Shown: positions 318 through 8,220 of the stretch, piece by piece
Numbering within the stretch: position 1 is the stretch's first letter
Layout: every line of letters begins with the position of its first letter
Assembly: GCA_022865625.1 (NCBI GenBank)
Contig: JALHTB010000007.1
Coordinates: 1-8,220, forward strand
DNA from: Candidatus Bathyarchaeota archaeon
GTDB lineage: Archaea; Thermoproteota; Bathyarchaeia; 40CM-2-53-6; FEN-987
Length of the DNA stretch: 8,220 bases
Reading direction: 5' to 3'
Translations under genes and position numbers: made by a program
Notes under the pieces: generated by a model
The model's input: the letters and a program-made list of their open reading frames with translations, nothing else
Databases searched by the model: none
Told to the model about the DNA's origin: nothing

Positions 318-959
318 CTAGTCTTTGAATTTCAGGTCAAGCTCGATGTCTAGGCCTTCGAAGGCGTCGCGGATGTCTTCTCTGAGGCTCTTTGCGAGTT
401 CACTGTCAGTCTTCGCGTTCAAACCGAGCGATATCTTCTTGCCCTGTTCCACTGTGACGCTCTCAAGTATCTTGGCGGAGACTATGTCAACTCCCTGAAT
501 CGGATCAAGTACGCCGCGCAGAATCTTGTTGACGAATGCCTCGTCTATCTTAACGCGTCCTCTCTTCGCTTCGTACTTGAGGAAAGCAGTCTCGAGCCCC
601 TGCCGCGAGAGCACGGCGCAGTGCAGTTTGATTCGCGGCAGCCCGCCGAGAGTTTCTGATATGTCTTTGAAGGTGACTTTCCTAGCTTCGTCGATTGTTT
701 TGCCTTTCACCATCTCGGTCATCATTGAGCTTGTGGCAATGTTGGCGGCGCATCCATACGACTCGAACTTTATGTCCTTAATCTGATCTTTGTCGGGATC
801 GAACTTCAAGTACAGCTTGATCAGGTCACCACAGGCGACGCTCCCAACTTTAGAGGTGACGTCCGGATTCTCCATGACGCCGACATTTCTCGGGTTCTTG
901 AAGTGATCCATCACTTTCTCGGAATACCCGAACTTCTTCGCCAAAGTGCTTTCCGGCAT
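318..959 (-). CDS. iscU: IscU/NifU-type Fe-S cluster scaffold with a C-terminal DUF59-like domain
   Basis: This is a cytoplasmic scaffold on which Fe-S clusters are built with IscS. Residues about 11-132 are a clear IscU domain: YSEKVMDHFKNPRNVG at 12-27, then the three cluster-ligand cysteines Cys43 (in ACGD, with the conserved Asp45), Cys70 (in YGCAANIATSS) and Cys114 (in KLHC), and the GGLPRIKLHC segment. At 213 residues it is much longer than a classic IscU of about 130-150. The extra part (about 136-213) does not look like the NifU/Nfu CxxC domain. Its LRGVLDPIQGVDIVSAKILE segment and its ending GLDIELDLKF resemble the MIP18/SufT-like DUF59 fold, though without that family's cysteine. 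The gene follows the iscS-like gene by 5 bases, and a very strong Shine-Dalgarno fixes the ATG start at 959. It ends at TAG. The IscU call is secure; the DUF59 call is moderate. Confidence 0.9.
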   Translation of the reverse strand: MPESTLAKKFGYSEKVMDHFKNPRNVGVMENPDVTSKVGSVACGDLIKLYLKFDPDKDQIKDIKFESYGCAANIATSSMMTEMVKGKTIDEARKVTFKDISETLGGLPRIKLHCAVLSRQGLETAFLKYEAKRGRVKIDEAFVNKILRGVLDPIQGVDIVSAKILESVTVEQGKKISLGLNAKTDSELAKSLREDIRDAFEGLDIELDLKFKD

Positions 960-964
960 AGTTG

Positions 965-974
965 TTACCTCCTC
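965..974 (-). promoter_or_regulatory. Strong Shine-Dalgarno of iscU overlapping the iscS stop
   Basis: On the minus strand the bases read GAGGAGGTAA, a near-perfect anti-16S match, about 5-6 bases before the iscU ATG at 959. The last three bases are the TAA stop of the iscS-like gene, so termination of one gene and initiation of the next are physically linked. This supports translational coupling of the pair. Confidence 0.8.
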
Positions 975-2167
975 TGAGAGGCCTTTCTTGCAAGTGGGCT
1001 GTGAGCTCTTAGAGTCTCGACGACTTGCTTGACCGTTTCGGTTGCGTAGGCCACATCTTGCCTAGTCGTCCACTTCGAGAGGCTCAAACGGGTTGAGCTA
1101 TGGGATTCTTCAAGTGTTCCTCCGATGGCTCGGATGACATGGCTTGGTTCGAGTTTTTGACTGTAGCACGCTGAACCAGTGTTCGCGACAAGTCCCCTTA
1201 GGTCCAAGTGCATGAGAATCGCCTCGCCTTCCACGAATCTGAAAGAGATGTTGACGTTGTTGCAGAGTCTACCTTCGCCTCTCGGCCCGTTCAGACGGGA
1301 GTCTGAGATCGCCAAGAGCGACTCGATCAACTCATCTCTCAACCCTCGCATCCTAACCGTGTCCTGATCTGTCATGAACTCCGCGGCTTTTGCGAAGCCA
1401 ACAATTCCTGCGACGTTCGGGGTTCCAGGCCTCAATCCTTTCTCTCTGTCGTCACCGTAGAGAACGGGTTCGAGTTTGACTCCGTTTCTAACATAAAGCG
1501 CACCCACACCTTTCGGCCCATGAATCAAGTGCGACGACATCGAAAGCAGGTCAACCTTCATCGCTTGGACATCAAGCTTCTCTCTAGCGAACGACTGGAC
1601 TGCATCGCAGTGAAACAGAACCCCGCTTTCTCTGGCGATCCCTCCGATCGCGGCCACATCCTGCAGTGTTCCGATTTCTTGGTTGCCATGCTGCACGGAC
1701 ACTAGCCGCGCGTCGCCTAGGTTCGCTTTCACATTGGCCGGATTGACGAAGCCTTCGCGATCAACATCAAGCAGGACCTTTTCGAATCCTTGCGTCGTGA
1801 GCTTGTCAGTGATCCGGAGAACCGATGTATGCTCGATCTTGCTTGTGACAATACGTTTACCCTTGTGGTAGCTGGATCGTGCGGCTCCAAGGATCGCTAT
1901 GTTGTTGCTTTCGGTTCCGCCTGAAGTGAAGATGATTTCCTCTGGGCTCGCGTTGATTCTTCTGGCAATCCTCTCTCTAGCTTGCTCGATGGCTTCGCCA
2001 GCTTCTTCCTCAAGCCCATAGCCGAATTCGCCAGCGGGTACACCGTATTTGTCGACCATGAAATCCTTCATGAAATCGAGAACAGCCGGATCTAGTCTAG
2101 TCGTCTCTGCATTGTCTAAGTACACGAGTGATCGTCCTTCTGTCTCAGGATCGAGAGATTTCGACAA
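965..2167 (-). CDS. iscS: IscS/NifS-like cysteine desulfurase homologue lacking the PLP lysine
   Basis: This is a fold-type I aminotransferase-class protein of the NifS/IscS family, 400 residues long as usual. Visible family marks are YLDNAETT (16-23), SGGTESNN (82-89), His113 in EHTSVL, GNQEIGT (161-167), Asp188 and Gln191 in CDAVQSF, GPKGVGALYVR (217-227), LRPGTPN (245-251) and the persulfide cysteine Cys334 in TGSACYS. The Schiff-base lysine, expected after the His of the SxHK motif, is absent: residue 214 is Leu (SSHLIHGPKG, codon TTG at 1526-1528). Archaeoglobus fulgidus IscS is a known precedent, with Asp at this place and no PLP-dependent activity without restoration of the lysine. I infer that this protein is not a normal desulfurase and serves as IscU partner or cysteine ligand. 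The start given is TTG 2167; GTG 2125, directly before YLDNA and preceded by AGAAGGA, is a good alternative. It is co-transcribed with iscU. Confidence 0.9.
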   Translation of the reverse strand: MSKSLDPETEGRSLVYLDNAETTRLDPAVLDFMKDFMVDKYGVPAGEFGYGLEEEAGEAIEQARERIARRINASPEEIIFTSGGTESNNIAILGAARSSYHKGKRIVTSKIEHTSVLRITDKLTTQGFEKVLLDVDREGFVNPANVKANLGDARLVSVQHGNQEIGTLQDVAAIGGIARESGVLFHCDAVQSFAREKLDVQAMKVDLLSMSSHLIHGPKGVGALYVRNGVKLEPVLYGDDREKGLRPGTPNVAGIVGFAKAAEFMTDQDTVRMRGLRDELIESLLAISDSRLNGPRGEGRLCNNVNISFRFVEGEAILMHLDLRGLVANTGSACYSQKLEPSHVIRAIGGTLEESHSSTRLSLSKWTTRQDVAYATETVKQVVETLRAHSPLARKASQRR

Positions 2168-6021: not shown

Positions 6022-6249
6022 CTATTGCACTCTGAGCATTGGTGACTGGTAGTAGTAGAGCTGGCCCGGTTGCTGAACGAGGCACATCTGAGGCGGCGGC
6101 TGATACACATAACCAACCGGTGGAGGCTGATAGACGTACCCCTGAGGAGGAGGCTGATAGTAGACCTCAGGAGCCTGAGGAACAACGTACTGCATTGGCA
6201 ACAGGTATGTGTACGCAAGCGGTGGTTTCGGGACGCAATAGTAAGCCAT
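6022..6249 (-). CDS. Small Tyr/Pro/Gln-rich repeat protein, possible substrate of the adjacent radical SAM enzyme
   Basis: A 75-residue protein with extreme composition: Tyr, Pro, Gln and Val dominate, and there are only two charged side chains besides the N-terminal Lys8 (Glu28 and Arg73). Its core (29-55) is three tandem nonapeptides, VYYQPPPQG, YVYQPPPVG and YVYQPPPQM, flanked by further YxxP segments (MAYYCVPKPPLAYTY, QLYYYQSP). It has two cysteines (5 and 56), no signal peptide and no membrane helix. I recognise no family. ATG 6249 has a candidate BoxA (GGTTTATCCC) about 38 bases upstream and a weak AGGGT. It lies 142 bases downstream of a radical SAM/SPASM gene on the same strand and converges on the URO-D-family gene with 7 bases between stops. 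Modified-peptide precursor is an inference. Otherwise it may be an unstructured adhesive or surface peptide. A spurious reading cannot be excluded, since frames on the other strand are also open. Confidence 0.5.
   Translation of the reverse strand: MAYYCVPKPPLAYTYLLPMQYVVPQAPEVYYQPPPQGYVYQPPPVGYVYQPPPQMCLVQQPGQLYYYQSPMLRVQ
6085..6165 (-). repeat. Three 27-bp tandem repeats encoding YxYQPPPxG
   Basis: Three consecutive 27-base units lie inside the small repeat gene. They share the plus-strand core GG(C/T/A)GG(C/A)GGCTGATA, the antisense of TATCAGCC(G/T)CC. The units differ at several third codon positions while the encoded YQPPP core is kept. This pattern fits selection on the minus-strand peptide. 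Confidence 0.7.
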
Positions 6250-6391: not shown

Positions 6392-7594
6392 CTAGGGGAT
6401 AATCTCACAACTGTTGTATTTCGTATACTCGAAGTCCTGTAGCTGTATCTTTCCTTCTTGAATGAGGTGCCTGACCTCAGGCAGCGCTTCGTGCAGCGAG
6501 TCCATCATTCCTTTGACGGTGTCACAGACTTGTCGGAATCCTTCGTCTCCCCAGAGCTTGGTGGCGTTGGCGTAGAGGCATCGCCCACCACAGATCCCAT
6601 AAATATCGCAGCGAGTGCAGGGATCAGATACGAAGGCGGTATCTCTCAGACCTTCTGACGAGGTCTCTCGAATGTTGCCCAAGTAGAAGTCCTTCATGCC
6701 AGCCATGACCGGGCAGGGGGTTATGTTCCCATCTGTTTGGATGTTGAACATGATCCAGCCAGCGCCGCAGCGGAGGGGGCTCGTTTCATTCACCAGAAGA
6801 GACTGCATGACCCCGACTAGGGGATAGAGTCTCAAGACTTCCCCATCGGTTCGCATGTGTTCCACCCATGCCTGTATGAGGCTTCTCAGCCGAGGATTGT
6901 AACTCTCCGTGGCCCATTTAGCGAACTGTCGTCTCGGGAAATCATTCTGCCAAAACAATGCGTCAAGCTGCCAGTGAACTGATGAGACCGGCAGATCTTT
7001 GCCGTGAATCAACGCGAGGACCTGACGATCGATCTCGGTTTCCTCTCCGACCGTCATTCGAGCGATGATCTCGCCTCTGAATCCATTCGCGAGGATTCTT
7101 TGCACATTGTTTGCCACTCTCCGGTATGTCCCGTTTCCTCTGTAGTGGTCCGTTAATGCCTCGTCGCCGTCTACAGAGACGAGGATTGTCTCAAACTTGT
7201 TCACATACTCGGGTTCCAGTCTATCAAGCAAGAGCCCGTTCGTCTGAATCATGAATCTGCTGTTCCTCGCTCGATCCATGATCTCTCTTAGCTTGTCTAT
7301 TCGAAGGAGCGGCTCGCCGCCGTAGAATACGAGAACTGTATCTCGATCTTTCTCCAGAAATGCCTGCAATGCGTCTGTGTCGTAGGATATGGAGCTGGGC
7401 AACGAGTAGTCGACTGTAAGGTCATGAAAGTCGCTGCCGAAATCCTCGCAGGCTTTTCCGTAGCAGTATCTGCACTTGAGATTGCAGTTGTTGGTCAGTG
7501 TCACGTAGAAGTGCATCATGAATCTCTTCTGATGTCGTTGTGGCGGCGGTTGCATAAGGCGAGCTTGCAGTTGATCGTCAAGGCATTTAGGCAT
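6392..7594 (-). CDS. Radical SAM/SPASM-type putative peptide-modifying enzyme
   Basis: This is a radical S-adenosylmethionine enzyme. The SAM-binding 4Fe-4S motif is CNLKCRYC with Cys37, Cys41 and Cys44 (CX3CX2C), followed by the SAM-contact GGEP at 92-95. The C-terminal part is a SPASM/twitch-like auxiliary-cluster region with Cys276 (CGAGW), Cys294 (PCPV), Cys326 and Cys329 (CTRC), Cys335 and Cys339 (CGGRC), Cys357, and Cys396 near the end (NSCEIIP). This layout and length resemble the archaeal 'putative peptide-modifying radical SAM' group typified by A. fulgidus AF1577; the exact family is from memory. Such enzymes usually modify ribosomal peptides. The start given is ATG 7594. ATG 7519 (MMHFYVTLT) is a likely alternative because the domain begins there and the first 25 residues (Gln/Pro-rich) look unlike the family. 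It ends at TAG. A small Tyr/Pro-rich gene lies downstream, and a racemase-family gene is divergent. Confidence 0.88.
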   Translation of the reverse strand: MPKCLDDQLQARLMQPPPQRHQKRFMMHFYVTLTNNCNLKCRYCYGKACEDFGSDFHDLTVDYSLPSSISYDTDALQAFLEKDRDTVLVFYGGEPLLRIDKLREIMDRARNSRFMIQTNGLLLDRLEPEYVNKFETILVSVDGDEALTDHYRGNGTYRRVANNVQRILANGFRGEIIARMTVGEETEIDRQVLALIHGKDLPVSSVHWQLDALFWQNDFPRRQFAKWATESYNPRLRSLIQAWVEHMRTDGEVLRLYPLVGVMQSLLVNETSPLRCGAGWIMFNIQTDGNITPCPVMAGMKDFYLGNIRETSSEGLRDTAFVSDPCTRCDIYGICGGRCLYANATKLWGDEGFRQVCDTVKGMMDSLHEALPEVRHLIQEGKIQLQDFEYTKYNSCEIIP

Positions 7595-7677: not shown

Positions 7678-8220
7678 GTGACCGTGCCCAGAAAGAAACT
7701 CGCACTTCTTCACACAGTAGCCGGGCTCACCACAACTTTTCAGCAACTGTGTGTGGAACTCATGCCGAATGTTGAGATCTACCATATTGTTGACGAAAGT
7801 CTGCTGAGGAACACGATTCGAGAGGGAGCACCTAGTCCCGCGACCTACAGGCGTCTCGCAGACTATCTGCGTGGTGCCGAAGAAGCCGGCGCAGATGCTG
7901 TCTTAGTGACCTGCTCCTCAATGGGACCGTGTGTCGAAGCGGCTCGCCCTATGGTTGGGATACCCGTCGTTCGTGTCGATGAACCAATGGCAGAGAAGGC
8001 AGTGCAGACGGGCACACGAATCGGCGTTGCGGCAACACTGGCGACAACTCTCAAGCCTACAACGGAACTCATCTAGAGAAAAACAGCCCAGACCGGGAAG
8101 AAGCATACTATCGAGTCCAGACTCTGCGAAGGAGCCTTCGAGGCTGTGGTTAGCGGAGACGCATCGACCCACGACAGAATAGTCAGTCAATGCCTGCGTG
8201 AACTTGACGCGAAGACGGAC
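7678..8220 (+). pseudogene. Asp/Glu racemase-family protein with an in-frame TAG, 3' end outside the window
   Basis: The protein belongs to the aspartate/glutamate/hydantoin racemase superfamily, cofactor-independent enzymes using two cysteines. The first half has LALLHTVAGLTTTFQQL, GAEEAGADAVLVTCSSMGP with the probable catalytic Cys, PVVRVDEPMAEKAV and TRIGVAATLATTLKPTTELI. TAG 8074-8076 then interrupts the frame. The same frame continues with RKTAQTGKKHTIESRLCEGAFEAVV... and DASTHDRIVSQCLRELD to the window end, matching the family's normal second domain. So no frameshift is involved, only one stop codon. The second catalytic cysteine would lie beyond 8220. Possible reasons are a nonsense mutation, a base-call error, or UAG read-through. 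The start is GTG 7678 (GTG 7684 possible), with only weak ribosome-binding signal. It is divergent from the radical SAM gene across 83 bases in which I see no clear promoter. Confidence 0.75.

Follow-up and report, generated by a model that had tools for sequence, protein, structure and literature searches.

What can an IscS protein do when the lysine that binds PLP is missing? The question is raised by a stretch of 8,220 nucleotides from Candidatus Bathyarchaeota archaeon (assembly GCA_022865625.1, contig JALHTB010000007.1), hereafter the window, in which an IscS/NifS-like protein carries leucine at the lysine site and is encoded next to an IscU scaffold (Table 1).

The iscS-iscU pair and its leucine

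The window protein has the class V aminotransferase fold of the IscS/NifS family, as judged by its match to PF00266 and by its predicted structure, and it retains the loop cysteine of the family, while Leu214 stands in place of the PLP-binding lysine. Its scores lie below the cut-offs of TIGR03402 (415.6 vs 530.75) and TIGR02006 (350.8 vs 643.2), values obtained for the window protein alone. The predicted model (pLDDT 88.7, pTM 0.88) is confident except at the N-terminus and in the Cys loop, where residues 333-336 fall below a pLDDT of 50, and it superposes with a TM-score of about 0.9 on Nfs1, E. coli IscS and A. fulgidus IscS, the last of which also provides the best PDB sequence matches (4r5f and 4eb5). 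With E. coli IscS, a group I cysteine desulfurase, the protein shares the fold, the Cys loop, most residues of the PLP site and an adjoining IscU; it differs in having Leu for K206 and Gln for N155.

The iscU gene begins 5 bases past the iscS stop codon, and its product keeps the assembly residues C43, D45, C70, H113 and C114 and is of a long type, extended by a C-terminal domain without cysteines (residues 143-202). No other isc family was found in the seven window ORFs scanned, and the adjacent pair stands alone, as in the minimal MIS system (MisS-MisU), which is likewise described as an IscS-IscU pair in PMC12442378. An OsmC-like gene (PF02566) at 1-255 on the plus strand, truncated by the left edge of the window, is convergent with iscU.

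Table 1. Features of the iscS-iscU locus, with positions in the window
Feature	Position	Strand	Evidence
IscS/NifS-like protein, 400 aa, TTG start	965..2167	-	PF00266, 5.7e-71
TTG codon, Leu214 at the PLP lysine site (E. coli K206)	1526..1528	-	
Gln163 at the E. coli N155 site	1679..1681	-	Gln in best 120/120 listed homologues
His113 (E. coli H104), retained	1829..1831	-	best 120/120 listed homologues
Asp188-Gln191 (E. coli D180-Q183), retained	1595..1606	-	D180 and Q183 each 120/120 listed homologues
Cys334, loop cysteine (E. coli C328), retained	1166..1168	-	299/299 listed Lys-less proteins
IscU scaffold, 213 aa	318..959	-	PF01592, 7e-46
FeS_assembly_P domain, C-terminal in the long IscU	354..533	-	PF01883, 1e-6

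Two further observations concern the rest of the window. A frame resembling Asp/Glu racemases (7678-8220, plus strand) contains an in-frame TAG at 8074-8076, and reading through it lengthens the match to PF01177 and raises its score from 55 to 64 bits; the TAG may be a nonsense change, an error or a pyrrolysine-type reading. On the minus strand, a 75-aa ORF rich in Pro, Tyr and Gln (6022-6249), with YVYQPPP repeats and no Pfam match, lies 142 bases downstream of a radical SAM/SPASM gene (6392-7594, TIGR04084), and the two are a possible modified-peptide pair.

The preliminary description, made from the letters of the window, had stated that leucine replaces the PLP lysine, that His113, Asp188, Gln191 and Cys334 are retained, and that a sequencing error is unlikely. 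All three statements hold. The plus strand reads CAA at the codon in question, which is TTG on the minus strand; the motif is SSHLIHGPKG, residue 214 aligns with E. coli K206, and the four retained residues correspond to E. coli H104, D180, Q183 and C328. Among the best 120 of at least 7,989 homologues, the lysine site is occupied by Leu in 119 and by Met in one, and never by Lys. These relatives include P0002, which is 96% identical to the window protein and is named Candidatus Bathyarchaeia archaeon by NCBI; Leu is likewise found in P0156, Korarchaeota by name. In the further genome groups searched, two of which comprised 394 genomes each and seem to overlap widely, no close relatives of the window protein were found, the best match being 61% identical.

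Another search, made with a related Leu-type protein, brought in 59 further ones (Leu 58, Met 1, Lys 0), bringing Leu or Met to 179 of the 179 proteins in the Leu-type lists, and a Methanolobus query of the Thr type gave Thr 115, Ile 4 and Asn 1 in its best 120 listed matches. The preliminary description had proposed tabulating this residue across homologues, and the outcome is that Lys is absent from all 299 proteins listed by the three queries, all of which have the loop cysteine; as best-match lists of 120, 59 and 120 proteins, these tallies describe conservation within each type and not frequency among all IscS proteins. In an alignment of 165 rows, the site is K in 122, L in 23, T in 10, D in 4, R in 4, M in 1 and S in 1, and Cys328 is found in 165/165 rows. 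L062, which had been misaligned at the site, is excluded from the Lys-less tally.

Five different Leu codons (TTG, CTT, CTC, TTA and CTA) are used at the site across the window and ten other Leu loci, and of five Leu-type pairs compared, three have a dN of 0.09-0.14 and a dS of 1.75-2.34, while for the remaining two dS could not be computed. Because nearly all listed relatives share the leucine, with several codons and with dN far below dS in the computable pairs, a sequencing error or a decaying gene, for which no supporting point was found, can be dismissed with near certainty. The leucine itself seems, from these comparisons, to be kept by selection.

Lysine-less branches and their TusA and DsrE neighbours

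A tree of 79 rows, from which eight PLP-site columns were removed and in which three of the four Arg rows were used, places the window protein in a core Leu branch of 16 rows (15 Leu and 1 Met; support 100/99). Also within this branch are the proteins of Thermococcus sp. SY098 (P0121; L118) and Palaeococcus pacificus (P0130; L116), which likewise accompany a long IscU, and which differ from the window in having tusA between iscS and iscU and in the changes H104 to Arg and N155 to Phe. Together with a Thr/Ser branch, the core Leu branch forms a superclade of 27 rows (100/98). Two proteins of this superclade have lysine, L090 (1495-2652, plus strand), with SADK in place of SxHK, and L004 (773-1936, plus strand), both with a long IscU, by reversion or because the residue was lost repeatedly elsewhere in the superclade. 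A. fulgidus IscS and three more Asp types, the Arg types and three further Thr types fall outside it, and the Leu row L113 is found among Lys types in the 79-row tree and with the Leu types in another tree.

A single clade for all 36 Lys-less rows was rejected (AU p 2e-5), while one for all Leu/Met rows was not (AU p 0.13). Lys-less IscS proteins also occur in bacteria, namely in Acetobacterium (L014), Anaerotalea (L028) and a Eubacteriaceae bacterium (L033). The earlier idea of one archaeal branch joining the window protein and A. fulgidus IscS therefore had to be given up: the two sit on separate branches, and a shared origin was rejected by the same test.

A. fulgidus IscS (4eb5, 4hvk and 4r5f) likewise has no lysine at the site, an IscU partner and the loop cysteine, and it is reported to be inactive as a desulfurase, with its Cys as a ligand to the IscU cluster (as cited in PMC7585200). 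Its residue at the site, however, is Asp, and it has changed R354 to Leu, H205 to Asn and Q183 to Ala, all three of which are kept in the window protein; the other three Asp-type genes adjoin a short IscU, in contrast to the long IscU of the window. Neither the residues of the A. fulgidus type (Asp at the site, R354 lost) nor its clade thus includes the window protein. The IscS1-IscU1 pair of M. acetivorans is also without the lysine and includes a long IscU1 of 24 kDa, but has Thr (P0260) in place of Leu and the changes H104 to Asp and Q183 to His; in PMC7585200, IscS1 is noted as Lys-less and as clustered with four further genes of unknown function. A relative of IscS1 in Methanolobus (L021) belongs to a branch adjoining the Leu branch and has TusA and DsrE genes upstream.

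A profile seeded with E. coli TusA and applied to equal flanks of 1.4 kb finds same-strand TusA-like genes at 20 of 28 Lys-less loci, compared with 6 of 116 Lys-type IscS loci and none of five SufS-type loci; four of the six Lys-type cases are partners in tandems of the order IscS(R)-TusA-IscS(K), where the letter is the residue at the lysine site, and the other two (L031 and L057) are plain. A broader count, which reached out to 3 kb, had longer flanks at some of the Lys-less loci and relied on a profile from Lys-less neighbours, gives 22/28 vs 5/121, or by type D 3/3, R 4/4, S 1/1, T 9/10 and L 5/10. The 28 and 121 loci leave out the window, database proteins and E. coli, and the 121 include five SufS-type rows; L114 carries two Lys-less genes and is counted twice, and close relatives are found among the counted loci (L069-L072; L109 and L110; L149 and L151). 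Only three independent tree pairs bear on the association, with 1.8 on average in the same direction and none in the opposite one, which is not significant, and the Fisher p of 8.6e-13 is not relied on because it treats the loci as independent.

DsrE-like genes, three of them identified by Pfam, were found at 11/28 vs 0/121 loci in the 3-kb count and at 10/28 vs 0/116 in the 1.4-kb flanks, a contrast that is one-sided, because the profile was built from Lys-less neighbours and a seed from E. coli TusD matched neither Lys-less nor Lys-type loci. The gene orders include TusA-DsrE-IscS(T or S)-long IscU (L014, L021, L033 and L151), TusA-DsrE-IscS(D)-IscU (L142), IscS(L)-TusA-long IscU (L099 and L100) and IscS(L)-IscU-TusA-SufS(K) (L179). 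At L063 (1501-3816, minus strand), tandem Lys-less IscS genes of the Leu and Thr types follow TusA and a long IscU. A long IscU accompanies 14/28 Lys-less vs 3/64 Lys rows in the tree, a difference that is not independent of ancestry. No TusA match was obtained among the window ORFs of at least 55 aa, near the three nearest outside relatives examined (L098, L176 and L177), or near L115 and L117.

We lean slightly towards regarding the window protein as a dedicated and conserved pseudo-desulfurase IscS, which would dock IscU and offer Cys334 as a relay or ligand for sulfur that comes from elsewhere. It keeps the fold and the Cys loop and still has an IscU as partner, and the Lys-dependent cycle of cysteine desulfuration would not be possible. 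An IscS dimer would dock the long IscU and insert Cys334 into its assembly site, where the cysteine would either carry a persulfide from another donor or serve as a temporary cluster ligand. A dock lending a cysteine to the scaffold is proposed because the loop cysteine is invariant, an intact IscU is adjacent and A. fulgidus offers a precedent. The preliminary description had likewise taken Cys334 as a cluster ligand or a docking residue for IscU, and the invariant cysteine and intact IscU are in keeping with this; the ligand idea was already published for A. fulgidus.

As to the sulfur, that description had named sulfide or another donor, which can now be narrowed for many lineages, though not from the window itself, where TusA was not found. 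Judging by the TusA neighbours, the cysteine may in many lineages receive a carrier persulfide; the donor in these would probably be the neighbouring TusA, in some together with DsrE, and TusA would obtain its sulfur from a distinct desulfurase that has the lysine, or from inorganic sulfur. For the bathyarchaeal lineage, the donor may be sulfide, or else a TusA or a desulfurase whose gene lies elsewhere. One dimer of E. coli IscS can hold IscU and TusA together (PMC11302665), and sulfur passes from E. coli IscS to TusA (PMC2854127); no report of the reverse transfer, from TusA to IscS, was found in the literature consulted. Against a role of TusA as donor, it could serve another pathway.

It is also conceivable, if rather unlikely, that the protein acts only as a structural ligand and dock, with Cys334 as a temporary ligand while IscU builds the cluster from free sulfide and no persulfide passes via IscS. 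A. fulgidus IscS sets the example, the same has been suggested for M. acetivorans IscS1 (PMC7585200), an iscS mutant of E. coli can draw on sulfide for Fe-S assembly according to PMC13015791, and a window without TusA agrees with such a role. It leaves unexplained, however, why TusA lies beside most Lys-less genes in several branches, and the A. fulgidus type sits on a branch of its own.

The remaining active site

Around the missing lysine, much of the PLP site is intact. In the best 120 listed proteins of the window's branch, H104, D180, Q183, S203, H205 and R354 are each present in 120/120 and T76 and T243 in 117/120, while N155 is Gln in all 120; this second active-site change was absent from the preliminary description. 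The ten other Leu loci have lost H104 in nine cases and N155 in all ten, and N155 is replaced in 24/24 Leu/Met alignment rows. Lys occupies the N155 position in the Leu-type loci L114, L115, L117, L119 and L128, possibly as a relocated active-site lysine. In the window's own branch, a search by sequence for a compensating lysine returned eight Lys-enriched positions, none of them an evident substitute; at one, S332K in the Cys loop, Lys is found in 14/14 rows.

Beside K206L, the Leu branch has a fixed signature (e.g., S38G, R39E, W45E, T329Y and H235R), whose residues cluster around the 38-45 loop, positions 233-235 and the Cys loop, and such a signature of its own fits a different function rather than decay. 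The equivalents of E49 and D52, which are among the TusA-docking residues named in PMC2854127, are Glu in 14/14 rows of the window's branch, but W45 is also Glu, and the pattern is suggestive only.

The E. coli variants K206A, H104Q and Q183E are without desulfurase activity (PMC9978102), and because K206A is inactive, the window protein is expected by analogy to have lost this activity. According to the same source, some PLP remains bound to K206A, which also forms adducts with cysteine. The relatives seem to have an eroded PLP site, whereas binding looks possible in the window protein, and the term PLP-independent used in the preliminary description is not borne out: in the window's branch, the PLP residues checked are kept except for the lysine and Asn155, and since the eight others are there, PLP or PMP could still bind. 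These residues, R354 included, leave room for some PLP/PMP chemistry, which counts against a pseudo-desulfurase. A lysine-free PLP/PMP enzyme, acting on cysteine or on some related amino acid either slowly or by another chemistry, is nevertheless improbable. The six residues kept in 120/120, the PLP and adducts held by K206A and the lysine that may have moved to position 155 in half of the other Leu loci speak for it, but K206A does not desulfurate, N155 is replaced throughout the Leu/Met rows and H104 in most other Leu loci, and the window's branch has Gln where a moved lysine would be.

More improbable still is a role in regulation or stabilisation, in which the protein would, for instance, pair with a Lys-bearing desulfurase as a heterodimer or act as a brake on IscU. 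The tandems of L069-L072, IscS(R)-TusA-IscS(K), and of L063, IscS(T)-IscS(L), would suit a heterodimer, yet the window locus has a single IscS, and a mere brake would have no need of the loop cysteine, which does not vary among the proteins examined.

Possible iron-sulfur assembly without a desulfurase

Of eight Leu-type genomes, all of unstated completeness, five (G364, G205, G356, G003 and G036) encode an IscS or SufS that has the lysine, at a threshold of E 1e-20, and none was found at this threshold in the other three (G029, G001 and G002), in which the motif is present only in Thr and Leu types. Tentatively, and with less confidence than we place in a pseudo-desulfurase in the window, Lys-less IscS proteins may represent a recurrent, desulfurase-free form of Fe-S assembly, in which PLP chemistry was lost more than once and the protein turned into a cluster ligand that receives persulfide from TusA (in some lineages also with DsrE). 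Clusters would then be assembled with no desulfuration of cysteine by the ISC pair itself, and some archaea perhaps do without any cysteine desulfurase.

Lys-less IscS as such is already known from A. fulgidus and was noted for M. acetivorans IscS1 (PMC7585200). As far as our literature search shows, it is new that the Leu branch is broad, that a single origin is rejected, that the superclade of Leu and Thr/Ser types has a long IscU and that there is a link to TusA; for a link of TusA or DsrE with Lys-less IscS, nothing was found by title and the start of the abstract, many subscription papers lying outside the search.

Every ISC pathway is usually assumed to begin with a cysteine desulfurase, which the conserved Lys-less proteins cannot be by the usual route; sources that name these proteins mostly write cysteine desulfurase. 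Named hosts of Lys-less proteins include Thermococcus sp. SY098, Palaeococcus pacificus, Methanolobus, Methanosarcina and Acetobacterium. For some anaerobic archaea, the link to TusA offers a testable answer to the question of where the sulfur of their Fe-S clusters comes from.
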